Origin: a virus
Length of the DNA: 53,727 nucleotides
Reading direction: 5' to 3' (one strand)
Virus record (IMG/VR): IMGVR_UViG_3300027721_000020
Location: 1 to 53,727 of that record
Part shown: one piece after another, positions 134-53,727 of the stretch
Position numbering within the stretch: the stretch's first letter is position 1
How the letters are laid out: the number at the start of each line of letters is the position of its first letter
Notes under the pieces: generated by a model
Seen by the model: only the letters and a program-made list of their open reading frames with translations
The model's database searches: none
Told to the model about the DNA's origin: nothing
Made by a program: the position numbers and the translations under genes

Positions 134-581
134 ATACAAGGAAAATATTGTGGTATTCCCACATAGACTGGATGATGAAAAAAATCCTGAGGAATTTACC
201 GAATTTTCAAAATTATGCAATACCGAGGAGTTTGACTTCTTAAGAACCAAGGATTTAGTTAATACTAAGGAGGGGTATTTTTCCATTTTGGAAACAAGTA
301 CCTTTGCATTCTCCTCAGCATATCAGGAGACCTGGGGTATTGCCATGCAGGAAGCAGTATTATGCGGTTGTATCCCAATTGTGCCTAATCGGTTATCGTA
401 TTCTGAAATGTATTTGGCTGAATTTAAGTATAACTCATTGGATGAGGCGGTGGAAATGTTTCACAGTCATTGTGCATCACCTCCTATAATTGCCTTGCGG
501 AAACAAAAGGAAATGATAGAGGAAAAAGGCTGCAAAGCTATTCCTAATATATTCACATATATACAAACCTTAGATGGATAG
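1..581 (+). CDS. GT-B glycosyltransferase, C-terminal part (gene continues from 53180)
   Basis: This is the 3' part of a 331-residue protein that starts at 53180 and crosses the circle join. The TTG at 6-8 is not a real start: the other copy of this site reads TGG (Trp) inside an open frame. In the joined protein the C-terminal half has the pattern of a retaining GT-B donor domain: HRLDDEKNP at residues 193-201, then SAYQETWGIAMQEAVLCG at about 244-261, with the E-x7-E pair (E248, E256) that binds the nucleotide-sugar. It overlaps the DpdA-like gene by 8 bp (ATGGATAG), so the two are probably translationally coupled. Its position between a radical SAM gene and dpdA suggests that it glycosylates the modified base. 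That is inference; another phage or host acceptor is possible. Confidence 0.85.
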   Translation, partial: WLNIVDLVFLATNYHAQLLWKNRIIHFDKIKVTGFPIFPIIHSAYKENIVVFPHRLDDEKNPEEFTEFSKLCNTEEFDFLRTKDLVNTKEGYFSILETSTFAFSSAYQETWGIAMQEAVLCGCIPIVPNRLSYSEMYLAEFKYNSLDEAVEMFHSHCASPPIIALRKQKEMIEEKGCKAIPNIFTYIQTLDG

Positions 582-1575
582 TACATTTAATTACAAAATA
601 TTTGCGGATTGCGGTGCGCCTTCGCTGTACAACAAATTATCAAGAAAAACTGGAGATAGAGGAATAATGGGCTCCAGTTTCAAAAATAGGAAGTATGATT
701 CATTTTCTTATACGGAAACCGCGGAATATGATGAGTATCGTACGGCGTATATTACCTTTTTGAAAAAACACAAACACCAAATAACCACATATTCTAATCT
801 TGATGTTATCAATAATCCAGACCTAACTTATAGAAATCAATTAACGTTAGAAGCTCAGGGGCTAAATCCTATTCCAGTATTCCATATAGGGTCGAATTTG
901 AAATGGCTTAGAAAACTATTAAGGAAATACGAGTACATTGCCTTAGGCGGGCTAGTACCTAATACTACCGCAGTATTAATACCATTATTGGATAGACTTT
1001 TTAAGGAGGAATTACTTGATAGTAATGGTTTACCAAAAGTAAAATTACATGGTTTTGCTTGCACTTCAATTCCACTAATGTTAAGGTACCCGTGGTATTC
1101 TGTTGATAGTGCAACCTGTAGGAAACTTGCAGGATATGGTAGTATAGTCATTCCTAATTTCACGCAAAAAAAATTAATCCCAGTCCAAATTTCATCAAGG
1201 GACACACCACTACGGTATAAATTTACCGAAGGTTTGCTAAATAGTTTCAATACATTGATGGAAAAACATGGTACTAATACATTTAATTTGAGTACCTTAG
1301 AAGCGGACAGAATGACATGGAATTATTTGATGTACTCTTTAATAATTCAAAAAAGTGTTCCTAATTGGCCTTGGAGCTTTTCCACCAGGAAACAAATTAA
1401 TCCCACAAATGAACTAATGTGCTTTTACTTTGCAGGAGCATACCATTTGGAAAAGGAAGTTTTCTTATGGAATACTTTAAAAGACAAAGGAATTGATAAC
1501 CTAAAAGGTAGACTGCAATCCTTTTTTTACCGAACATCTTTGGAAGCGACAATTAAACTTAAATATACCAAATGA
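574..1575 (+). CDS. dpdA: DpdA-like 7-deazaguanine DNA transglycosylase
   Basis: A 333-residue TGT-superfamily protein of the phage DpdA type. This family exchanges guanine in DNA for a 7-deazaguanine base. Visible motifs are ADCG (residues 11-14), NLDVINNP (75-82), PVFHIG (101-106), ALGG (123-126), KLHGFACTS (157-165) and YSVDS (175-179). The last carries the probable nucleophilic Asp178, and the whole pattern is characteristic of DpdA rather than of tRNA-guanine transglycosylase. The zinc-binding Cys/His block of bacterial TGT is not seen. It starts inside the end of the glycosyltransferase gene and its stop overlaps the sliding clamp start (ATGA), so base modification and replication genes form one transcription unit. 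queD, queE and folE upstream supply the precursor. I recognise the family from its motifs; the exact base inserted cannot be read from sequence. Confidence 0.85.
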   Translation: MDSTFNYKIFADCGAPSLYNKLSRKTGDRGIMGSSFKNRKYDSFSYTETAEYDEYRTAYITFLKKHKHQITTYSNLDVINNPDLTYRNQLTLEAQGLNPIPVFHIGSNLKWLRKLLRKYEYIALGGLVPNTTAVLIPLLDRLFKEELLDSNGLPKVKLHGFACTSIPLMLRYPWYSVDSATCRKLAGYGSIVIPNFTQKKLIPVQISSRDTPLRYKFTEGLLNSFNTLMEKHGTNTFNLSTLEADRMTWNYLMYSLIIQKSVPNWPWSFSTRKQINPTNELMCFYFAGAYHLEKEVFLWNTLKDKGIDNLKGRLQSFFYRTSLEATIKLKYTK

Positions 1576-2573
1576 TAATAGATAGACTAAAATTAATAAA
1601 AGCACTGGAAACAGTGAAGCCCGGACTGGCTAGTAAAGAAATGATCGAACAAAGTACCTCATTTTGTTTCATTAAGGGAAATGTGGTGACTTATAATGAT
1701 GAAATAAGTATCTCCTGTCCATTGTCAGGATTAGATATGGAAGGTGCTATATCTGCCTTTGAATTACATGCTTTCATATCTAAGGTCAAACTTACGGAGA
1801 TTGACTTGGAAATTAAGGAAAATGAATTGATAATAAAGGCAGGAAAATCCAAAGCTGCATTGAAATTAAATGTTGATGTGGTGCTACCTATTGAGGAAAT
1901 TGGAGTAATTAAAAAATGGAAAAAATTGCCTGACAATTTTTGTAGCGGATTAAATTTTTGTATGCCAGTATGCTCAAGGAATATGTCCAGACCGCTTTTT
2001 ACTTGTGTCCACGTTAATGGAGATTCAGTGGAAGGTAGTGATAGCTTTCGCATCGCTAAGTATACACTAACATCCAAAACCGAAACAAAGCCATTCCTAA
2101 TACCTGCAAATGTATGCAGCAAGGTGATAAAGATGTTTCCTTCACATATAGCTGAGGGGGAAGGATGGGTTCATTTCAAAACAGAGGATGGAGCTGTGTT
2201 GAGTTGTCGGATATTTGAGGAGAAATATCCCGAAGTTGTTGAGATATTGCACGTTAAAGGTACAGCAATAACATTTCCGGGAAATCTATTGTCTATTTTG
2301 GACAAGGCAAGTATATTTTCAAAGCGGGAACATATATTGGATGAAAGTATTACCATTATCATTGAATCACGGATGATTAAGGTAATATCAGCATCCGAGA
2401 CAGGCAGATTCGAGGAAAAGGAGAGAATAGCATATACTGGAGAACCTATTACTTTCTCCATCCCTCCATATTTGTTAAAGGATATTTTGAAACAAACCTC
2501 ACAAGGCATTATAAATGCAGAGCGTCTGCGATTTGAAGGAGATAATTGGGAGTATGTAACAATGGTTCAATAA
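1572..2573 (+). CDS. dnaN: DNA polymerase sliding clamp (beta clamp-like)
   Basis: A 333-residue DnaN-like protein, somewhat shorter than bacterial beta clamps (about 370). It has the three-repeat style of alternating strands and short helices, and patterns such as DGDSVEGSDSFRIAKY near residue 155-165 that resemble the clamp's TDGHRLA motif. It would act as the ring-shaped processivity factor for the PolA-type polymerase encoded next to it. Its start overlaps the DpdA stop by four bases, and the clamp loader follows at 5291. The pairing of clamp, polymerase and loader supports the call. Identification rests on fold-like pattern and context rather than on one decisive motif. Confidence 0.8.
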   Translation: MIIDRLKLIKALETVKPGLASKEMIEQSTSFCFIKGNVVTYNDEISISCPLSGLDMEGAISAFELHAFISKVKLTEIDLEIKENELIIKAGKSKAALKLNVDVVLPIEEIGVIKKWKKLPDNFCSGLNFCMPVCSRNMSRPLFTCVHVNGDSVEGSDSFRIAKYTLTSKTETKPFLIPANVCSKVIKMFPSHIAEGEGWVHFKTEDGAVLSCRIFEEKYPEVVEILHVKGTAITFPGNLLSILDKASIFSKREHILDESITIIIESRMIKVISASETGRFEEKERIAYTGEPITFSIPPYLLKDILKQTSQGIINAERLRFEGDNWEYVTMVQ

Positions 2574-2581
2574 TTTTACTT

Positions 2582-5215
2582 ATGAAAGAAGGATTTTTTT
2601 CAGCTAAGGAAACAAGCAGTGATTCCCGTCCCGATGGGAAGGTTTACTCCTGTGTATCCTGCGGCAGGTACAAGGGATGCTACACACCGAAAATGAAAGC
2701 CTCAGGGGAGTTCAATAAGGGAATTCTAAATATAGGAAGTTTCCCTACTCAAATAGAGGACAGACGGGGAAAACATTTCCAGAATAAGGAAGGTATACTG
2801 CTTGAAAAAACATACAAGAAATTGGGAATTGACCTCCATAAAGATTGCCTCAATATATATGCCGTGAATTGTATGGGTACGGATATTCCTTCCACTTATG
2901 AGCTGGATTGTTGCAGGAAAAGTATTCTCAAAATAATTGAGACCCATAAGCCTAAAATAATAATATTGTTAGGTGAAGAGGCGCTATACTCAGTAATAGG
3001 TAATAGGTGGAAATCGGATTTAGGGAAGGTCGAAAAGTGGAGAGGCTTTACAATACCTGATCAGGATTTTAAAGCATGGGTTTGTCCTACATTCGCAATT
3101 AAAACGATTATAGAGGCTAAATATGAGGTGTCTTCACTTATTTGGGAGCAGGATTTGAAAAAAGCCTTTGATTTGATTAATACTCCATTTCGATACTCTG
3201 AACCTCCTGTAATTGAATATTTAACGGAGGATAATCTTAAGGTACTCAATGCGATCAAAGATTGTGATATTGCCTTTGATTATGAGACCACGGGGTTAAA
3301 GCCGTATGCAAAAGGACACAAAATAGTTTGCGCTTCGGTAGCATACACTGAAAATAACGTGTACTCCTTTATGATGCCAACTACCAAAAATGGAATGAGG
3401 CCCTTTACAGACCTACTACTAAGACAATCTGTGGCTAAAATCGCCGCTAATATGAAATTTGAGGATACATGGTCTATTATTAAGCTGAGGACTAAAGTGG
3501 TTAAATGGCTATGGGATACTATGCAGGCTGCACATATTATTGATAATCGAAGCGGGGTAACGGGATTAAAATTTCAAACCTATGTTAATTTTGGGATTGT
3601 GGACTACGCCAGTGAGATTAGTCCGTATCTTAAGGCTAAGGATGATAAGGATGCGAATTCAATCAACCGAATAGAGGACCTGCTAGCAATACCAGGGGGA
3701 AAACACAAATTATTGCAATATGGTGCATATGATAGTATATATGAGTATCGCTTATCGGTTTTACAGCGAAAAATAATAAATACAATCCAACCTAAAGGCA
3801 GCAGGTTCGGTGCAAATGTAGTGGAAGCATATGAATTATTCCATAACGGTATTTTGGATTTGGCAAAGGCTGAACGTCAAGGACTAAGAGTAGATGAGAA
3901 TTATACGATTGAGCAAAAACAAAAATTAACAGAAAATATAGAAAATGTAGAAAATGAATTATATAATTCCAAATTCTATAAGCATTGGCGACACGTTGCA
4001 AGGTGTACTATTAATTTGGATAGTCCAGTTATGTTAGGTTCTTATCTATATGGTACCTTAGGACTTACACCTAAGAAGTATACAAAGACAGGTAAGGGAA
4101 GCACCGATGAGCAGGCACTATCAATGTTGCATATACCTGAATTAGATATGCTCCTCAAACGAAGTAAGTTAATGAACCTTAGAGATACATTCTTAGAAGG
4201 GGTGTCGAGGGAACAAGTCAATGGACGACTTCATCCTTTTTTCAATCTACACTTAGCCCGAACCTACAGAAGCTCATCTAATAACCCTAACTTTCAAAAT
4301 ATCCCAAAACGAGATACTTTAGCCATGACTACCATACGGTCTGCCATTTACCCAAGGGTAGGGCATCAATTGTTGGAAATGGATTTTTCGGGTATTGAGG
4401 TGTGTATAGCAGCATGTTATCATCAGGACCCTAACATGGTCAAATATATCAAAGACCCTAATAGTGATATGCACGGGGATATGGCTAGGCAAATATTTAT
4501 TATTGATAAGTGGGATAGAGGAAGGAGAGACCACTCATTGCTTAGAGGTGCAGCTAAAAATGGATTTGTATTTCCACAATTCTATGGAGATTATTACAAA
4601 AATAATGCGGAAAATATCTGCAATAATTGGGTAAACTTACCCTTGTCAAAATGGGATGTTTCAATGGGAATAAAATTAGATAACGGAATTACCATTGCAG
4701 AGCATCTAATTTCAAAAAAAATAAACTCCTACGATAAATTTGCTGAACATTTGAAAGGCATTGAGGCCGATTTTTGGAATAACAGGTTTCCCAGATATGC
4801 TGAATGGAAGGAGGAGCATTTTGCTACTTACTTGAAATATGGGTATATTCCCTTAAAGACAGGATTTGTTTGCAGCGGTGTAATGGGGAAAAATGATGTT
4901 TCAAACTACCCTGTACAAGGCTCTGCTTTCCATTGCCTTTTATGGACATTCTCAAAAATAACTGAGGAATTGGAAAAAAGAGATATGCAGTCAAAGGTAA
5001 TAGGACAGATACACGATGCTGTGGTTTTCGATATTCACCCTCCTGAACTAAATGCAGTATATTACTTAATGCAACAAATTGTGGTCCATTTACTCCCAAA
5101 ACATTATACGTGGATAAATGTCCCATTAGGTATTGATGCAGAGCTTTGTCCTATTGATGGAAATTGGGCGGAAAAAAAGAAATGGAAACCAGAAGTAGAT
5201 GACCTGCCTTTTTAA
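2582..5215 (+). CDS. polA: Family A DNA polymerase with N-terminal uracil-DNA glycosylase-like domain
   Basis: An 877-residue replicative polymerase; ATG 2582 is chosen because the upstream in-frame TTG lies inside the clamp gene. Residues 1-200 look like a family 4 UDG with a probable Fe-S site: CVSCGRYKGC near the N-terminus, then a Cys pair followed by KPKIIILLG. A DnaQ/PolI-type 3'-5' exonuclease starts with FDYETTG near residue 230. The polymerase part has motif A (EMDFSGIE, about 598), motif B (RGAAKNGFVFPQFYGD, about 654) and motif C (QIHDAVVFD, about 808). Motif C reads HDA where most family A enzymes have HDE. A UDG fused to phage PolA is known from other phages (SPO1-like). It probably works with the neighbouring clamp and clamp loader. 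Confidence 0.93.
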   Translation: MKEGFFSAKETSSDSRPDGKVYSCVSCGRYKGCYTPKMKASGEFNKGILNIGSFPTQIEDRRGKHFQNKEGILLEKTYKKLGIDLHKDCLNIYAVNCMGTDIPSTYELDCCRKSILKIIETHKPKIIILLGEEALYSVIGNRWKSDLGKVEKWRGFTIPDQDFKAWVCPTFAIKTIIEAKYEVSSLIWEQDLKKAFDLINTPFRYSEPPVIEYLTEDNLKVLNAIKDCDIAFDYETTGLKPYAKGHKIVCASVAYTENNVYSFMMPTTKNGMRPFTDLLLRQSVAKIAANMKFEDTWSIIKLRTKVVKWLWDTMQAAHIIDNRSGVTGLKFQTYVNFGIVDYASEISPYLKAKDDKDANSINRIEDLLAIPGGKHKLLQYGAYDSIYEYRLSVLQRKIINTIQPKGSRFGANVVEAYELFHNGILDLAKAERQGLRVDENYTIEQKQKLTENIENVENELYNSKFYKHWRHVARCTINLDSPVMLGSYLYGTLGLTPKKYTKTGKGSTDEQALSMLHIPELDMLLKRSKLMNLRDTFLEGVSREQVNGRLHPFFNLHLARTYRSSSNNPNFQNIPKRDTLAMTTIRSAIYPRVGHQLLEMDFSGIEVCIAACYHQDPNMVKYIKDPNSDMHGDMARQIFIIDKWDRGRRDHSLLRGAAKNGFVFPQFYGDYYKNNAENICNNWVNLPLSKWDVSMGIKLDNGITIAEHLISKKINSYDKFAEHLKGIEADFWNNRFPRYAEWKEEHFATYLKYGYIPLKTGFVCSGVMGKNDVSNYPVQGSAFHCLLWTFSKITEELEKRDMQSKVIGQIHDAVVFDIHPPELNAVYYLMQQIVVHLLPKHYTWINVPLGIDAELCPIDGNWAEKKKWKPEVDDLPF

Positions 5216-8718: not shown

Positions 8719-9084
8719 ATGACATTATTCTCCCGAAAATCAACCACACGAGGTAAGGAGGTTAAATTTGTAGGGGTTCATTTTCCCCTACATCTTAATA
8801 CCTACATCACCTTATATGCAATGACAATGGAGACCTCAAAATCAGCCATTATTTGCAATGAATTAGAGGCTTGGAATAAAGCTAATGAAAAAACAATGTC
8901 AATTGATGCAATGGTTGCTATATTGGTAAAAAAGGCCATTGGATTGTATGAATCAGGAAGGGTACATAATAGCGCGGCTTTAAGAAAATTTCTAATAGAT
9001 ATACGAAAGGAATTAATTATCAAAGGGATAGATACGGATGTGGTCACAAAAATAATAAAACAGATACAAAATGGAGCGGACTAA
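8719..9084 (+). CDS. Protein of unknown function next to recombinase
   Basis: A 121-residue protein. ATG 8719 is favoured over the in-frame ATG at 8665, which lies inside the SSB gene, and it has a good Shine-Dalgarno-like AAGGAGG about ten bases upstream, which is rare in this genome. It begins MTLFSRKSTTRGKEVKF and is otherwise helical. No family is recognised. It overlaps the recombinase start at 9071 by 14 bp. Confidence 0.6.
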   Translation: MTLFSRKSTTRGKEVKFVGVHFPLHLNTYITLYAMTMETSKSAIICNELEAWNKANEKTMSIDAMVAILVKKAIGLYESGRVHNSAALRKFLIDIRKELIIKGIDTDVVTKIIKQIQNGAD

Positions 9085-36773: not shown

Positions 36774-37290
36774 ATCCCATCAACTTGTCTATCCGTTGTA
36801 AGGCTATTGTCTTTGGGTGCAGCTTTATTTTTACATAGATTACTTCCACCAGCTCTTTGGATACTATTCGTTGTTCGGTTTTGTATTCTATTGATTCGAT
36901 AGCATCCTTCTCATCTGAGGTTAATTTTGTGTACTCTGCCAATTCGGTCCACTTATTGTGTATCTTACCTATGGATGAATACGCTATTTTCATATATTCC
37001 TTAATTTGCCTTGCTTTAGTTATGCCGCACAGTAATTCAAAATCGTCCTTTATATAAGCTATGTACTGCCTTACCTTATTGTTCCTTAATATCCTATTCC
37101 CCTGCACTGCCGCAGTGTTATCCGTGCTACAATCATTGTAAACCTCCTTATAAGCCTGTGTTTTATTCCACCCATTATTAACATATGCCATAGCCATCAT
37201 TTTCCACCTTACAGGCAAATCTCTCTCCAGTGCATACTTTGAATACACCTTATCAAGTTTTTCATGATTCCTCGGTTTTGTCCTTTCCAT
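36718..37290 (-). CDS. terS: Terminase small subunit
   Basis: A 190-residue protein with a helix-turn-helix-like N-terminal part (RWKMMAMAYVNNGWNKTQAYKEVY, then VQGNRILRNNKVRQYIAYI) typical of terminase_2-type TerS. It would recognise phage DNA and recruit TerL. It is the first gene of the minus arm and starts MERTKPRN, the same M-x-R-T-K motif as several plus-arm DNA proteins. A -7 element TAATTTTG lies 27 bases upstream. Confidence 0.85.
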   Translation of the reverse strand: MERTKPRNHEKLDKVYSKYALERDLPVRWKMMAMAYVNNGWNKTQAYKEVYNDCSTDNTAAVQGNRILRNNKVRQYIAYIKDDFELLCGITKARQIKEYMKIAYSSIGKIHNKWTELAEYTKLTSDEKDAIESIEYKTEQRIVSKELVEVIYVKIKLHPKTIALQRIDKLMGYESATRLDISVEQPLFPD

Positions 37291-48441: not shown

Positions 48442-48819
48442 ATGTACACGATAACAAAAGAATTTGAATTTTCAGCAAGTCATCAATTACTGTACCTAGC
48501 AGAAGGGCATCCTTGCAGCAGGCTTCATGGACATAATTATAGGATACGAATTGAGTGCAAAAATGCTGTTTTGAATAAAGCGGGGTTTGTACTTGATTAC
48601 CATGAATTAGAAGGTATTAAGACTTGGTTGAATGAAATGATTGACCATGAACACTTAAATAACCTAATGGAAGAAAATCCTACCGCTGAGAATATAGCAA
48701 CTATGATTTACCGGTATGTAAAGCACACATTGAAAATTTGGCAAATTTCTGCCGTAGAAGTGTCCGAAACTCCTAAAACAAATTGTCGATATGAGCCAGA
48801 TTATAATACCAAGTTATAG
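48442..48819 (+). CDS. queD: 6-carboxytetrahydropterin synthase
   Basis: A 125-residue T-fold enzyme. It makes 6-carboxytetrahydropterin from dihydroneopterin triphosphate, step 2 of 7-deazaguanine synthesis. Zinc ligands are H14, H29 and H31 (LHGHNY). Catalytic residues are C25 and the D68-H69 pair in IDHEHLN, with the pterin-binding Glu in VSET (E109). Its 3' end overlaps queE by 29 bp. FolE, encoded at 50885, supplies the substrate. Confidence 0.93.
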   Translation: MYTITKEFEFSASHQLLYLAEGHPCSRLHGHNYRIRIECKNAVLNKAGFVLDYHELEGIKTWLNEMIDHEHLNNLMEENPTAENIATMIYRYVKHTLKIWQISAVEVSETPKTNCRYEPDYNTKL

Positions 48820-49540
48820 CATTAATAATACAAATTTCGGAAACCCCGATAATTGTTTGCGAATTTCCGAGTTTTTTTGTGATACTATACAAGGAGAGGG
48901 GGTAAATATAGGAATGCCCGCTGCATTCCTTAGATTACAAGGATGCACACTAAATTGCAACTATTGCGATACAAAGGATATTTGGAAATTCGGCAGTGAT
49001 TACTCCTTCACCTACTTATTTGAATTGATGGAAACGTATCATCTCATCCCCAAATTAAGACAGGGAGTCCACTTGGTTATTACAGGAGGCAGTCCTCTGT
49101 TACAACAAAAAAACCTTATTTTATTTTTCAATAAATTTTCTAATAAATATAAATTCACTCCATATATTGAAATAGAAAACGAATGTATAATAATTCCACA
49201 TGAGGAATTAATTAATATGGTCTCGTGCTGGAATAATAGTCCTAAATTAAAATCAAGTGGTATGAAACCCCAAAATATAGTGGTGGAGTATATGCGGTAT
49301 TTACACAATAGTTGGTTTAAATTTGTTGTATCCTCGCAAGAGGATTGGATTGAAATAGCGGAAAGTTATTTGAATACAGGGTTAATTAATAAAGAGCAGG
49401 TAATATTAATGCCTAAAGGTGCTAATTTAGCTGAATTAGAAAAAAATAGGCAGCTAACTGTGGAATTAGCTATTCAAAACGGAGTGCGGTACTGCACACG
49501 TGAACACGTGGTTTTGTGGGACTTAGCAACGGGGGTTTAA
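48791..49540 (+). CDS. queE: 7-carboxy-7-deazaguanine synthase (radical SAM)
   Basis: A 249-residue radical SAM enzyme that converts carboxytetrahydropterin to 7-carboxy-7-deazaguanine. The Fe-S cluster motif is GCTLNCNYCDT (C52, C56, C59), after the typical QGEGVNIGMPAAFLRLQG. The SAM-binding GGE motif reads GGSP here (99-102), with Ser in place of Glu. The start overlaps queD. No QueC that would turn CDG into preQ0 is visible in the genome, so CDG may be the end product or the host may complete it. Confidence 0.92.
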   Translation: MSQIIIPSYSINNTNFGNPDNCLRISEFFCDTIQGEGVNIGMPAAFLRLQGCTLNCNYCDTKDIWKFGSDYSFTYLFELMETYHLIPKLRQGVHLVITGGSPLLQQKNLILFFNKFSNKYKFTPYIEIENECIIIPHEELINMVSCWNNSPKLKSSGMKPQNIVVEYMRYLHNSWFKFVVSSQEDWIEIAESYLNTGLINKEQVILMPKGANLAELEKNRQLTVELAIQNGVRYCTREHVVLWDLATGV

Positions 49541-49591
49541 TATTTTAAAAAAATATTTAAACTTTTTTTAAATTATTTTGTAGTATAGGTG

Positions 49592-49621
49592 TTCAACCGT
49601 TGGAAATTTGTTTTATCTTTA
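49592..49621 (+). promoter_or_regulatory. Promoter upstream of the 75-residue gene
   Basis: TTC at 49592-49594, 19 bases, then TATCTTTA at 49614-49621. The -33 element has one mismatch. The region 49541-49600 also has the TTTAAA-rich upstream segment seen in the cassettes at 37437 and 47841. Confidence 0.5.
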
Positions 49622-49652
49622 CATTATAAATAAAAACAAAAATTTTAACAAT

Positions 49653-49669
49653 TAAAAACTTGCAAAATG
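49653..49669 (+). promoter_or_regulatory. Conserved translation leader, copy 5
   Basis: TAAAAACTTGCAAAATG ending in the start codon at 49667. Confidence 0.8.
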
Positions 49670-49894
49670 GAAAATTTAAAAAATGTCACCAAAAAACAAA
49701 TATCCTTTTATTGTGATTTTATAAAATTAAATTGGCAAGAAATATACGAAACCGAAGAGTCATTTTATGTGGAATGTGTAAGTAATAAACATTGTCATAT
49801 CGAGCACTTTACATCATGGGATAAAGATACCAATACTTACAGACTTTCAAAAAAAGATCTGAATACTCCAATAACTGGCAATTATTTTAAATAA
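49667..49894 (+). CDS. Small acidic protein of unknown function
   Basis: A 75-residue protein beginning MENLKNVTKKQISFYCDFIKLNW. It has its own promoter, the conserved leader and a strong double hairpin afterwards, so it is an independently transcribed gene. No known family. Confidence 0.6.
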   Translation: MENLKNVTKKQISFYCDFIKLNWQEIYETEESFYVECVSNKHCHIEHFTSWDKDTNTYRLSKKDLNTPITGNYFK

Positions 49895-49899
49895 AAAAT

Positions 49900-49962
49900 C
49901 CCTGCATGTTTCCTGCAAGTTCATGCAGGGCTACCCCGCTGCCGTAAATGGAGCGGGGTTTT
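49900..49962 (+). terminator. Tandem hairpin terminator
   Basis: Two G/C-rich stem-loops follow each other: CCCTGCATG (49900-49908) with CATGCAGGG (49922-49930), then CCCCGCT (49934-49940) with AGCGGGG (49952-49958), followed by TTTT. The G+C content is far above the surroundings. It is probably a strong terminator; the first hairpin may add stability or be part of a small RNA. Confidence 0.75.
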
Positions 49963-50009
49963 GGGAGTACAAAATTTTAGGTAATAAATAATAACTAATA
50001 CGTAATAAA

Positions 50010-50834
50010 ATGAAAGTAGCAGATTTGAAAAAAACCGCAAAAGAATTAAATGACATTCTTTTCGATGACAAAACCAAAATCAATGTGAATCAAAGCCAAT
50101 CGAGCTTAGAAAACCTTGTTAAAGAAGCAGCAACCTTACTGGATGAGGGAGAAGAAGAGGAGCTCACCGCCATAGCTAGGAGAGTAATCGCAGAATTAAA
50201 AGAAAATAAGGAAGAGGTTGACGAGGAAGAGGTTGACGAGGAAGAGGTTGACGAGGAAGAGGTTGACGAGGAAGAGGTTGACGAGGAAGAGGTAATTGCG
50301 ACTAAAAAAGTAACTAAGGTTCCTGTACCATCACCAGTTACCAAAATTAACAAAACTGAGCCTTTGCCAGAGGACAAAGAAGCAGATATGAGTTTTGATG
50401 ACTTGACCTTGCAAGAACAAGTGCAAGCCACAGCTGATTTATTGGAACTTAAAAAACTTGTGAAGTCAGAGGAAACCTTCAAATACCTAAGACATTGCAT
50501 AGGTATTCAAAAAGATGCAAAAAAATTAAAAACATCTATGTTATTAGCCATCAAGGCGGAGCAAGCTACACCGGTAAAGGCAGCATCTAAACCTGCACCT
50601 GTTAAAAAAGAAGTAGTAAAAAATACCGGTGATAAACCAGAAAGTTGTGAATCGGTTGCATCGAGATTAGTCGCAAGCAAAGCCACAGAAGCTGTTTGGC
50701 TCAGTACTTTTACCGCTATTTATAAGGCAAAAGGAAAAACGGACACTGCTTTCATCCAAAAAAGAATTGATATATACAAAGAGATTGCACTTAGAAAGGC
50801 CGGACTTTCAGTGGTAAAGCCCGCAAAAAAATAG
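50010..50834 (+). CDS. Acidic repeat protein of unknown function
   Basis: A 274-residue protein in four parts: a helical N-terminal domain (about 1-68), an acidic EEVDE repeat tract (about 69-94), a Pro/Thr/Lys linker, and a helical C-terminal domain with basic linkers (PVKAASKPAPVKKEVVK). The repeat is encoded by five identical 15-base units. It has its own leader region and terminators on both sides. The architecture suggests a scaffolding or DNA/protein-bridging factor. No family is recognised. Confidence 0.6.
   Translation: MKVADLKKTAKELNDILFDDKTKINVNQSQSSLENLVKEAATLLDEGEEEELTAIARRVIAELKENKEEVDEEEVDEEEVDEEEVDEEEVDEEEVIATKKVTKVPVPSPVTKINKTEPLPEDKEADMSFDDLTLQEQVQATADLLELKKLVKSEETFKYLRHCIGIQKDAKKLKTSMLLAIKAEQATPVKAASKPAPVKKEVVKNTGDKPESCESVASRLVASKATEAVWLSTFTAIYKAKGKTDTAFIQKRIDIYKEIALRKAGLSVVKPAKK
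50214..50288 (+). repeat. Five 15-bp tandem repeats
   Basis: Five perfect units of GAGGTTGACGAGGAA, coding for EVDEE. Perfect identity suggests recent expansion and possible length variation between isolates. Confidence 0.95.
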
Positions 50835-50842
50835 TGTATTTA

Positions 50843-50866
50843 GAACCCTCATAATGAGGGTTTTCC
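50843..50866 (+). terminator. Intrinsic terminator
   Basis: AACCCTC (50844-50850) pairs with GAGGGTT (50856-50862) over a 5-base loop, followed by TT. It lies between the acidic repeat protein and folE. The distance to the folE ATG is only 20 bases and no clear promoter is visible, so readthrough may feed the modification operon. Confidence 0.7.
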
Positions 50867-50884
50867 ATCTTAATAATACTTAGT

Positions 50885-51466
50885 ATGAATAATAATTGTG
50901 TAATAAAAGATCAATCAGATCAAATCATGCAAACATTACTTTCCACCATATTACAATATATAGGAGACAATCCAAATAGAGAAGGTCTCCAAGATACACC
51001 AAAACGTGTAATAAAAAGTTGGAATGAGCTTTACTGTGGGTATTCACAATCCCCCGAAAGTATGCTAACCACATTTGCTGAGGATACCTCCGACCAAATA
51101 GTAGTTCTAAAGGACATTGAGCTATACTCCATGTGTGAACACCATATGTTACCATTCTTTGGAAAAGCCCATGTAGCATATTTACCTGATGGTAAAATAA
51201 TCGGTATTTCAAAATTAGCTAGGTTAGTTGATATTTACGCCCGTAGGTTGCAGATACAGGAACGTATAGGTGACCAAGTTACCTCTGCATTGATGCAATA
51301 CCTAAAGCCAAAAGGAGCTGCTTGCATAATTGAAGCCTCTCATATGTGTATGAGAATGAGAGGGGTTTCAAAACAACATTCAAAAATGATGACTTCAAGC
51401 ATGAAAGGAGTATTCCTGACTGATACAAATTTGGAAAGTAAACTGTTAACCATGATCTCATTATGA
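50885..51466 (+). CDS. folE: GTP cyclohydrolase I
   Basis: A 193-residue enzyme, GTP to dihydroneopterin triphosphate, the first step of 7-deazaguanine synthesis. Zinc ligands are C84 and H87 in [10 protein letters not shown] and C155 in HMCMRMRGV. The [25 protein letters not shown] block and the [13 protein letters not shown] end are highly typical. It overlaps the next start by four bases, beginning the tight operon folE, QueD-like, radical SAM, glycosyltransferase, dpdA, clamp. Confidence 0.95.
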
Positions 51467-51792
51467 AACGATATGTAATAGTTAATACCAGTTTTACCGC
51501 ACAACATTCATGGCCAGAGTGTGAACTTGCTTCGGTATTATTTTTGCAGTATACACACAGGCATAATTTTTATGTTACCTTGAAAATAGCAATATCTCAT
51601 AATAATAGAGATATTGAAATAATTAGGCTTAAAAATGCTGTGGATATATTTTTAGATTCCTATAGGAATACTGATATGGGTAGCAAATCTTGTGAAGACA
51701 TTGCAGAGGAGCTACTAAGGACCTTTCATGCAAATTATGTTAGTGTATTAGAAGACAATGAAAACGGAGCTGAAATATATGAAAACTATTAG
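51463..51792 (+). CDS. Second T-fold (QueD-like) small protein
   Basis: A 109-residue protein that keeps the QueD metal site: H15 in TAQHSW, then H32 and H34 in YTHRHNFYV, with C20 where QueD has its catalytic Cys region, and a C-terminal [12 protein letters not shown] that corresponds to the pterin-binding Glu. It is shorter than QueD (125) and diverged, and the D-H pair is not obvious. It may act on a pterin or a 7-deazaguanine intermediate. It overlaps folE and the radical SAM gene on both sides, so it is a fixed part of the modification operon. Function unknown. Confidence 0.65.
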
Positions 51793-53176
51793 AACTATAA
51801 ATATAATTGATCCCAGCTCATCCGAGTTTAACCGAGGGAGTTTTTGTTATGCAGCCTATCTGGCATACAATTATTTAACCCAGAGTAAATTTGAGTATGA
51901 GGTTAATCTATTCGAGACGTTTATTCCTGAGGATATGGATAAATTGCCGAATGTAGATATAAATTTAGTTTGCCTCTGGTCATATCCACAAATCGAAACA
52001 TGCCAAATGTTGTATAATTTATTGCCCATGGCATTGGATGATAGCAACATTTATTTTATTGGGTATACTGAATTGATACTACATTTAGGTCTTCCTCATG
52101 CTAAACATGTGTTTTCCTTTGATTTTTTGAAAGACCGTAATTTTATTTTGGAATCCATAAAGGAATATCCTAAAAATTACCGTAATTTCAAAAGACTTCT
52201 ATTATCAGATTGTGATATGCACTTGAAAAAATTAGAAGTAGGTAATAATTTAGTTTACCCATTGTTTACTTCCTATGGCTGTCCTAATGGGTGTAATTTT
52301 TGTCCTTCAACAACCAATTGTGGAATGACAAGATTTTCCTTATCCATATGTGAAACTTTAGACCTACTTAGTGAATGTATATCTTTAGGAATCAATAGGA
52401 TTCATTTCACGGACGAGGATTTTTTCTACGATATTCATCGAGCGTACGGTATTTTAAACGGGGCTATTGAATTAATGGGAGGTTTTAATTTTATTGCCTT
52501 AGGTTCTGCCGAAGCTGTTTTACGGTATATATCTACCTACGGTACTGATAGTATTAGAGATAGTGGATTAAAGATTATTGAGATAGGTTTTGAAAGCGCC
52601 TCGGAAGAAATGTATGATTATTTAGGGGAAGGTAAATCATTAACAGCATGTGAAACCTTAGCACAAGGTCAATTAGCGTATCCATTTGATATATTCTGGT
52701 TAGTACAGACATTTTCAGTAGGGGAGACCATCGCATCATTGAATAAGACAGGTCTATTTATGCGGAAATATGGAAAAAATATAGACGAGGTTGTGGGTAG
52801 ATTGCGAACCAATGGGACTAAAGGAGGACTTGGGCAGTATTTTCAAGCATATCATGGTACCGGAATATACAAACGTGCAATGAAACATGGCAAATCCTTG
52901 ACAGATAGACCTATTAGATTATTTCCGAGTTATATTCCTAATTCTTTTTTGAATTCAGAACCGAAGGTAGTTTATCAGGAGCCGTACTGTCTACCGGCTT
53001 GGGAGTTCCAAATATGGTTAGATTTTTACCAAGTACCTACATCGGTTGTGAATTATCTTTTGGATACCATTAACGGAGAGCTTTCCGTTAGTGAACTATG
53101 TGAAGGTTATCCGAATTCGCATACAAAATTATATATCTGTTTAGCCATATTGGCTCGATTCCAAATAATCTCATAG
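51779..53176 (+). CDS. Radical SAM protein with degenerate N-terminal B12-binding-like domain
   Basis: A 465-residue protein from ATG 51779; ATG 51758 is an alternative. Residues 1-150 look like a reduced cobalamin-binding Rossmann domain (INIIDPSSSEFNRGSFCYAAYL, IYFIGYTELILHLGL) with no clear DxHxxG motif. The Fe-S motif is GCPNGCNFC (about 166-174, Cx3Cx2C). ISLGINRIHFTDEDFFYD (about 202-219) and IIEIGFESASEEMYDYLGEGKS fit the B12-type radical SAM family. The substrate is unknown. Placement between a QueD-like protein and a glycosyltransferase, upstream of dpdA, suggests it modifies the 7-deazaguanine base. Confidence 0.8.
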   Translation: MKTIRTINIIDPSSSEFNRGSFCYAAYLAYNYLTQSKFEYEVNLFETFIPEDMDKLPNVDINLVCLWSYPQIETCQMLYNLLPMALDDSNIYFIGYTELILHLGLPHAKHVFSFDFLKDRNFILESIKEYPKNYRNFKRLLLSDCDMHLKKLEVGNNLVYPLFTSYGCPNGCNFCPSTTNCGMTRFSLSICETLDLLSECISLGINRIHFTDEDFFYDIHRAYGILNGAIELMGGFNFIALGSAEAVLRYISTYGTDSIRDSGLKIIEIGFESASEEMYDYLGEGKSLTACETLAQGQLAYPFDIFWLVQTFSVGETIASLNKTGLFMRKYGKNIDEVVGRLRTNGTKGGLGQYFQAYHGTGIYKRAMKHGKSLTDRPIRLFPSYIPNSFLNSEPKVVYQEPYCLPAWEFQIWLDFYQVPTSVVNYLLDTINGELSVSELCEGYPNSHTKLYICLAILARFQIIS

Positions 53177-53179
53177 GAT

Positions 53180-53727
53180 ATGAAAATATTAAATATACCA
53201 ATAGAACCAATAGGGGAGCGGTATTCAGTACAGTGGGATAGATGGTTTACTGATTACTTAGAGAAGTCCGGACTTGATTATACTACCGTATACGGTAACG
53301 AAACCAGTGGCATAATACAAACAGGCAGCTTTCTGGATGTTATCGAAACCAATGAATATAAGACAACCCAATTACTTGGAATTATTCAAATCCTTAAAAA
53401 TTGGAAATCAAAGGAAACATTAGTTCTATTTTTCCATGACTTATGGTTCCCTGGGTTACCTACAATAGCTTATATTAGAGATGGTTTGAAATTGAATATT
53501 AAGATCTGCGGTTGTTTGCATGCCGGTAGTTATGACCCACACGACTTTCTTACAAAAATGGGAATGGGGATTTGGGCTTCACACTCAGAAAATAGTTGGT
53601 GGAATATCGTAGACCTGGTTTTTTTGGCTACTAATTACCATGCGCAATTACTATGGAAAAATAGGATTATTCACTTTGATAAAATAAAGGTAACAGGATT
53701 CCCCATATTTCCGATTATACATAGCGC
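53180..53727 (+). CDS. GT-B glycosyltransferase, N-terminal part (gene continues at 1-581)
   Basis: Begins MKILNIPIEPIGERYSVQWD four bases after the radical SAM stop. The N-terminal acceptor domain has FFHDLWFPGLPTIAYIRDG (85-102) and HAGSYDPHD (114-122), as in GT4-type GT-B enzymes. The frame is open at the window end and resumes at position 1-581 via the 126-base exact overlap, giving 331 residues. It belongs to the operon that links folE to dpdA. Its expected role is transfer of a sugar to a modified base or to phage DNA; direct evidence is lacking. Confidence 0.85.
   Translation, partial: MKILNIPIEPIGERYSVQWDRWFTDYLEKSGLDYTTVYGNETSGIIQTGSFLDVIETNEYKTTQLLGIIQILKNWKSKETLVLFFHDLWFPGLPTIAYIRDGLKLNIKICGCLHAGSYDPHDFLTKMGMGIWASHSENSWWNIVDLVFLATNYHAQLLWKNRIIHFDKIKVTGFPIFPIIHS
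53595..53727. repeat. Terminal overlap, right copy
   Basis: Exact repeat of bases 8-133 at 53602-53727, plus one mismatch (53601 G against base 7 T). See the left copy. Confidence 0.9.

Follow-up and report, generated by a model that had tools for sequence, protein, structure and literature searches.

The window analysed here is the whole of the viral record IMGVR_UViG_3300027721_000020 from IMG/VR, 53,727 nucleotides of DNA, and it carries a set of genes for making 7-deazaguanine bases and inserting them into DNA. The final 133 bases repeat the opening 133 bases with one mismatch, and from this end repeat the record is circular. Across the join the genes run in the order queD-queE-...-folE-T-fold-radical SAM-glycosyltransferase-dpdA-clamp-polymerase, where SAM stands for S-adenosylmethionine. 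An earlier reading of this DNA from its letters alone, referred to below as the sequence-only reading, had described these genes; all were found again at the positions it gave, and its run of glycosyltransferase and dpdA through the join is upheld by the end repeat. The genes with which the argument is concerned are the following.

48442..48819, plus strand: queD, 6-carboxytetrahydropterin synthase, 125 amino acids (PF01242, 3e-30; TIGR03367, 2e-23)
48791..49540, plus strand: queE, 7-carboxy-7-deazaguanine synthase, a radical SAM enzyme, 249 amino acids (phrog_2076, 3e-47; TIGR03963, 2e-21)
50885..51466, plus strand: folE, GTP cyclohydrolase I, 193 amino acids (PF01227, 5e-73; NF006825, 3e-76)
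51463..51792, plus strand: T-fold protein of the phrog_17812 family, 109 amino acids (phrog_17812, 1e-21)
51779..53176, plus strand: predicted AprD4-like radical SAM enzyme, 465 amino acids, with a CxxxCxxC motif; the open reading frame (ORF) opens at 51758
53180..53727 then 134..581, plus strand (1-133 being the end repeat): predicted glycosyltransferase (GT), 331 amino acids, intact across the join
574..1575, plus strand: dpdA, DNA guanine transglycosylase of the phage 9g type, 333 amino acids (phrog_887, 2e-40)

The established chemistry of the FolE, QueD and QueE families is the formation of 7-carboxy-7-deazaguanine (CDG). Family models make the set of FolE, QueD, QueE and DpdA firm, in agreement with the sequence-only reading, and for DpdA an alignment with the phage 9g protein does so as well. 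In QueD the residues Cys25, His29, Gly30, Asp68-His69 and Glu109 are invariant across an alignment of the local family, and in DpdA the same is true of Asp12, His104, His159 and Asp178. The window DpdA and its phage 9g counterpart share 38% identity, His159 of the window protein aligns with 9g His196, and by this comparison the window DpdA is assigned to the 9g type, for which modification of DNA has been shown with the homologue (PMC6884629). Gene content and conserved residues support a QueC-less 7-deazaguanine DNA-modification operon.

From folE through the clamp each gene either overlaps the next or lies 3 bases from it (51463/51466, 51779/51792, 53176/53180, 574/581 and 1572/1575), and from these overlaps and short gaps we read a single putative operon that extends from queD to the polymerase. 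The arrangement appears far beyond chance because many viral contigs that have diverged from one another keep this gene order, a conservation that also rules out an assembly artefact or coincidence. Co-transcription with the clamp and polymerase, which the sequence-only reading had emphasised, is likely from the overlaps but is not special, as phage 9g has the same layout. The 9g scaffold is queE-gatqueC-queD-folE-dpdA-clamp-polymerase, and the extra genes are absent from it. The window shares with phage 9g and the dG+ system of the Queuovirinae (Hutinet 2019, PMC6884629) the folE-dpdA-clamp-polymerase scaffold, the DpdA type and FolE, QueD and QueE, whereas it has neither QueC nor an amidotransferase and carries the T-fold, radical SAM and GT genes between folE and dpdA. 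In its gene content the window operon looks like one of the 9g type in which the QueC branch has been replaced.

QueC and the T-fold protein

The sequence-only reading had found no queC, and this is borne out: a search with the QueC model (PF06508) gave no match in the whole record, while the same search was positive in 12 of 14 control genomes. None of 37 related records with the GT or radical SAM genes had QueC above the Pfam cut-off, and these included the whole genomes of PA5oct, Phosso, ACP17 and BUCT-ZZ01. A scan seeded with DpdA gave 80 viral loci, 74 of which had folE or queE in view and were used for counting. QueC was present in 48 of the 74 and the T-fold gene in none of those 48; the T-fold gene was present in 18 of the 74, all 18 with the GT and none with QueC (Fisher p 2e-11, on raw counts that include kin and near-duplicate contigs). 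As a QueC model finds the gene at 49 DpdA loci and the Pfam search detects it in the control genomes, the possibility that QueC was simply overlooked is ruled out. The record lacks the QueC or Gat-QueC by which the dPreQ0, dG+ and dADG branch is recognised. At the DpdA loci L265-L268, L280 and L281, folE, queD and queE are present and neither QueC nor the T-fold gene was found; these may be plain dCDG phages or represent a third branch.

The product of the 51463 gene had been described as a small QueD-like protein. It is a relative of QueD, since its profile matches that of the local QueD family (hhalign probability 95.6, E 1.2e-8), and its solved relatives in the PDB are PTPS/QueD proteins. 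In an alignment of 44 members of its own family His15, His32, His34 and Glu97 are kept, but an invariant Leu28 stands at the site of the catalytic cysteine (Cys25 in QueD, 4 residues before the first histidine of HxH) and the Asp-His pair of QueD is gone. An invariant Ser76-Cys77-Glu78 is new relative to QueD. Because the catalytic cysteine and the Asp-His pair have been lost, the protein is predicted to be a repurposed zinc T-fold enzyme of the PTPS/QueD superfamily and not a second QueD.

Cui and colleagues, in 2023, reportedly detected dDG and dCDG in phages and predicted a CDG decarboxylase named DpdL. Their QueC-less phages are said to have a small candidate-DpdL gene and to carry CDG or 7-deazaguanine as the base; neither a glycosyltransferase nor a further radical SAM enzyme is known to have been described in these systems. 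The T-fold protein may be DpdL, for which it is a candidate; nothing on DpdL was found in the open-licence literature, where absence is not proof. If the T-fold protein is DpdL, then the pathway goes beyond the carboxy base. That the product would stop there was the part of the sequence-only interpretation that found no support in the form given; a QueC-less operon with three extra pathway enzymes was the part that was supported. Because the T-fold protein replaces QueC across the DpdA family, is a catalytically altered relative of QueD and is a candidate DpdL, the carboxy group is more likely to be removed or used than kept.

The T-fold gene has other settings and forms in some phages. In Faecalibacterium phage Roos (L003, 10001-11219) it lies directly 5' of a phrog_887-family DpdA and no GT is in view, which makes this locus a simple comparison without the GT. 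Domain fusions occur in Vibrio phage Bakedbeans and Chryseobacterium phage MA9V-3 (L009:9128-10279 and L011:9452-10333), the former with an extra N-terminal part and the latter fused to an endonuclease VII-like part. A search for T-fold loci seeded with the Cellulophaga protein gave no matches.

The glycosyltransferase and the radical SAM enzymes

A search seeded with the GT gave 44 IMG/VR loci, nearly all with the T-fold gene and dpdA. All 32 loci found with the radical SAM gene as seed lie inside the operon, and dpdA is missing only where the sequence ends soon after the GT; the proteins of this family are 27-56% identical to the window protein, and the order queD-queE-folE-Tfold-rSAM-GT-dpdA (rSAM being the radical SAM gene) is kept in divergent contigs. 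In GTDB, with one genome per species for 84,980 cellular species, the radical SAM gene was found on one contig, together with the whole operon. A DNA-pattern search seeded with the T-fold gene gave at least 120 loci, and the GT was present in 91 of the 120 listed. Where the sequence extends at least 4 kb to each side of the GT, as at 65 loci, a gene for DpdA or a tRNA-guanine transglycosylase (TGT) lies in that stretch at 63. The two exceptions are Phosso, which has a TGT-like gene elsewhere, and PhiXhv-12, in which a remote GT without a T-fold gene stands beside a Gat-QueC fusion. In jumbo and T4-like phages the pair of GT and T-fold genes also accompanies a second TGT family that does not resemble the first (phrog_10773, with a DSGG motif). 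The profile of this second family has no PDB match and does not clearly match the window DpdA, so its TGT label is based on the DSGG motif and the annotation in X1. The Pseudomonas phages Cassandra and Paride carry GT, T-fold and TGT together. Co-occurrence of the three extra genes with dpdA, which the sequence-only reading had proposed to look for, is close to absolute across the differently seeded searches, and the wide distribution of the GT and radical SAM pair in phages without dpdA that would have spoken against it was looked for and not seen. Judged from these sequence comparisons, the three extra enzymes very probably belong to the pathway.

The GT has the motifs FPHR...EK and EX7E (E248..E256), Glu256 being invariant and Glu248 nearly invariant in the family alignment. 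A model of its homologue from locus L016 (predicted local distance difference test score, pLDDT, 92.9) has a GT-B fold with Z of about 25 to BshA, MshA and sucrose-phosphate synthase, and its closest viral models are the ACP17 protein and one further entry. Motif and modelled fold identify the window protein as a probable GT4-like retaining glycosyltransferase, and the earlier assignment to GT-B is borne out by them. The deazaguanine cluster of Synechococcus phage BUCT-ZZ01 has a further GT4-like gene, of 447 amino acids, close to the first (L006:7004-8347), which suggests two sugars. In Xanthomonas phage PhiXhv-12 (L007, 3301-11728) the remote GT relative and the Gat-QueC fusion are accompanied by genes for a PIG-L deacetylase, a GNAT acetyltransferase and an oxidoreductase of the GFO/IDH/MocA kind, and the group may be a further cluster for a sugar-type modification.

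For the radical SAM enzyme the ATG at 51779 fits the family alignment better than the ORF opening at 51758; numbered from 51758, the residues Asp151, Asp153, His155, His216, Asp219 and Glu220 are invariant. The call made from the letters alone is confirmed by the CxxxCxxC motif and by the radical SAM fold of a model (pLDDT 89.5). The best structural match of this model is AprD4, an aminosugar diol dehydratase of apramycin biosynthesis (Z 23.3; 370 residues at 3.3 A). The two share CxxxCxxC and a fold of two domains from end to end, and the next structures, CysS, MgmA and TsrM, have Z of about 18.8-18.9. A profile comparison likewise places AprD4 first (E 8e-12). The score against the AprD4 family model NF033070 is 11.6 bits, where the cut-off is 500 bits, and the predicted kinship with AprD4 is at the level of fold and distant profile.

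This is one of two kinds of radical SAM gene found beside the GT in such operons. At 28 non-redundant loci that have a dpdA of the window type and 4 kb of context, the AprD4-like gene is present at 18, a SPASM gene at 8 (one of which, L055, is a weak match of 48 bits) and neither at 2, and at no locus do the two occur together. The SPASM gene mostly adjoins or overlaps the GT gene. Its product, whose best solved relative is BtrN, an aminocyclitol dehydrogenase, is unrelated to the AprD4-like proteins and has no more in common with them than the cluster motif region. On a quick tree of the GT, in which many branches are weak, the two types switch several times. At L047 and L048 the GT has no adjoining radical SAM gene. 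The best hint that these enzymes act on a sugar is that one position next to the GT is taken by either of two unrelated radical SAM classes. The cultured jumbo and T4-like phages PA5oct, ACP17 and X1 have the GT and T-fold genes with no such radical SAM gene adjoining, which suggests that the enzyme acts after or beside the GT and not before it on the base.

A possible route to a glycosylated base, and alternatives

The reading that we favour, by a little more than an even chance, is a QueC-independent 7-deazaguanine branch that ends in a glycosylated base, with the radical SAM enzyme tailoring the sugar. FolE, QueD and QueE would make CDG, and the T-fold protein would prepare the base, with loss of the 7-carboxylate as the most likely step. 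DpdA, as shown for the 9g homologue, would then swap guanine in DNA for the prepared base. Once the base is in place, the GT would transfer to its C7 or 2-amino group a sugar taken from a nucleotide-sugar of the host, and the AprD4-like enzyme would oxidise, dehydrate or epimerise a hydroxyl-bearing carbon of that sugar; we infer the glycosylation and sugar-tailoring steps from the genes. By analogy with dG+ and dPreQ0 phages the bulky base may shield the phage DNA from host nucleases. A more detailed version is tentative: the product may be a 7-deazaguanine with the sugar at C7, where the carboxylate had been, as a C-glycoside possibly formed by decarboxylation, or at N2, and the sugar may be remodelled by interchangeable AprD4-like and BtrN-like enzymes, either on DNA or just before transfer, with all of these particulars taken jointly.

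There are precedents for parts of such a scheme. The GT-B enzymes of phages T4 and RB69 glycosylate hydroxymethylcytosine in DNA after replication, whereas in the window the acceptor would be a 7-deazaguanine inserted by transglycosylation. In the biosynthesis of huimycin the enzymatic glycosylation of a deazaguanine-derived base has been proposed and an N2 linkage found (PMC7439116). The window GT may be likened by description to HuiG of that pathway, in the proposed transfer of a sugar to the 2-amino group of a 7-deazaguanine-derived base, but huimycin is a QueC-dependent small-molecule natural product.

Several points weigh against a glycosylated base with a tailored sugar. The fold comparison of the GT favours no nucleic-acid acceptor, and GT4 folds take many acceptors. 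A similar-looking motif raised the question of kinship with QTMAN, whose QTMAN_N family glycosylates queuosine in tRNA; QTMAN is not among the structures listed in the fold comparison, and QTMAN_N (PF12038) gave no match in the GT or in 39 records, with no control genome matched either. The match of the SPASM protein to BtrN draws largely on the shared cluster-binding domain. The counts overstate independence, since many of the loci belong to syntenic relatives or are near-duplicates, although the GT and T-fold pair also accompanies the second TGT family. AprD4 itself is a radical SAM diol dehydratase that dehydrates paromamine at C3' and needs the reductase partner AprD3 (PMC5461906). The window enzyme is 12-13% identical to it, which makes the substrate class a soft assignment, no AprD3-type reductase was noticed in the operon, and the setting is that of phage DNA modification.

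It is unlikely that the operon makes a plain known base, dCDG or dDG, with the GT and radical SAM enzymes merely encoded in it and acting on, for example, host surface sugars or virion glycans. Genes for GT4 and radical SAM enzymes are common in large phages, and the T-fold gene has no GT in view at roughly a quarter of the at least 120 loci, and likewise in phages such as Cellulophaga phi13:1. Such bystanders, however, would have to account for a GT gene that overlaps dpdA and a radical SAM gene that ends 3 bases before the GT, for the near-constant DpdA or TGT neighbour of the GT (63/65), for a radical SAM gene found only in the operon and for the mutual exclusion of the T-fold/GT set and QueC. 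Some chance, if a small one, attaches to a radical SAM enzyme that modifies the base itself, for example by C-C bond formation, methylation or reduction at C7, and so creates the atom that the GT glycosylates. The fold neighbours of AprD4 include the ring- or base-modifying enzymes TsrM, MiaB and OxsB, and the radical SAM gene is 5' of the GT in most operons. Against this, cultured jumbo and T4-like phages have the GT and T-fold genes without an adjoining radical SAM gene, which would not be needed there for the acceptor, and of the two unrelated types that alternate the best solved relatives both act on aminosugar or aminocyclitol hydroxyls.

An operon that leaves DNA alone, and serves instead to modify tRNA or to produce a free deazaguanine glycoside as a small-molecule weapon, is in our view very improbable. 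A GT acting on a free deazaguanine-type base has been proposed in huimycin biosynthesis (PMC7439116), and preQ0 genes may boost queuosine in tRNA in some phages (PMC6884629), but the window DpdA is of the DNA-modifying 9g type and keeps 9g His196, and the operon sits in a clamp-polymerase replication run, as in 9g.

The phage 7-deazaguanine bases known so far are small. If the proposal is right, a glycosylated 7-deazaguanine would be a new, guanine-based kind of DNA hypermodification, and its sugar the first radical-SAM-tailored DNA glycan, across many unrelated phage groups. No description of a glycosylated 7-deazaguanine in phage DNA was found in the open-licence literature, though absence there is not proof. 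The signature of T-fold and GT without QueC is present in well over a hundred viral contigs and in cultured phages such as PA5oct, Cassandra, Paride, ACP17 and X1; most of the encoded proteins are labelled hypothetical there. The signature suggests a role for the families phrog_17812 and phrog_10773, which lack names, and the loci are a potential source of DNA-acting glycosyltransferases and radical SAM enzymes. Work on jumbo phages has noted a deazaguanine system in PA5oct, in passages with no mention of a GT in it (PMC7824862).

Neighbouring genes

The remaining genes of the run are these.

49667, plus strand: small ORF between queE and the acidic-protein gene
50010..50834, plus strand: acidic Lys/Glu-rich protein, role unassigned, inside the operon between queE and folE
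1572..2573, plus strand: sliding clamp (phrog_947, 3e-31), with a 4-base overlap with dpdA
2546..5215, plus strand: family A DNA polymerase, next in the run after the clamp

The acidic protein bears repeats (EEVDEEEVDEEEVD), and by clustering a gene of the same kind lies near queE or folE in 19 related loci. Elsewhere in the record the peptide M[EVK]RTK occurs in seven otherwise unrelated ORFs, at 9071, 10340, 13027, 42067, 44897 and 48132 on the plus strand and at 37290 on the minus strand. It stands mostly at the likely start of the protein, and MERTKK is seen also in L021.

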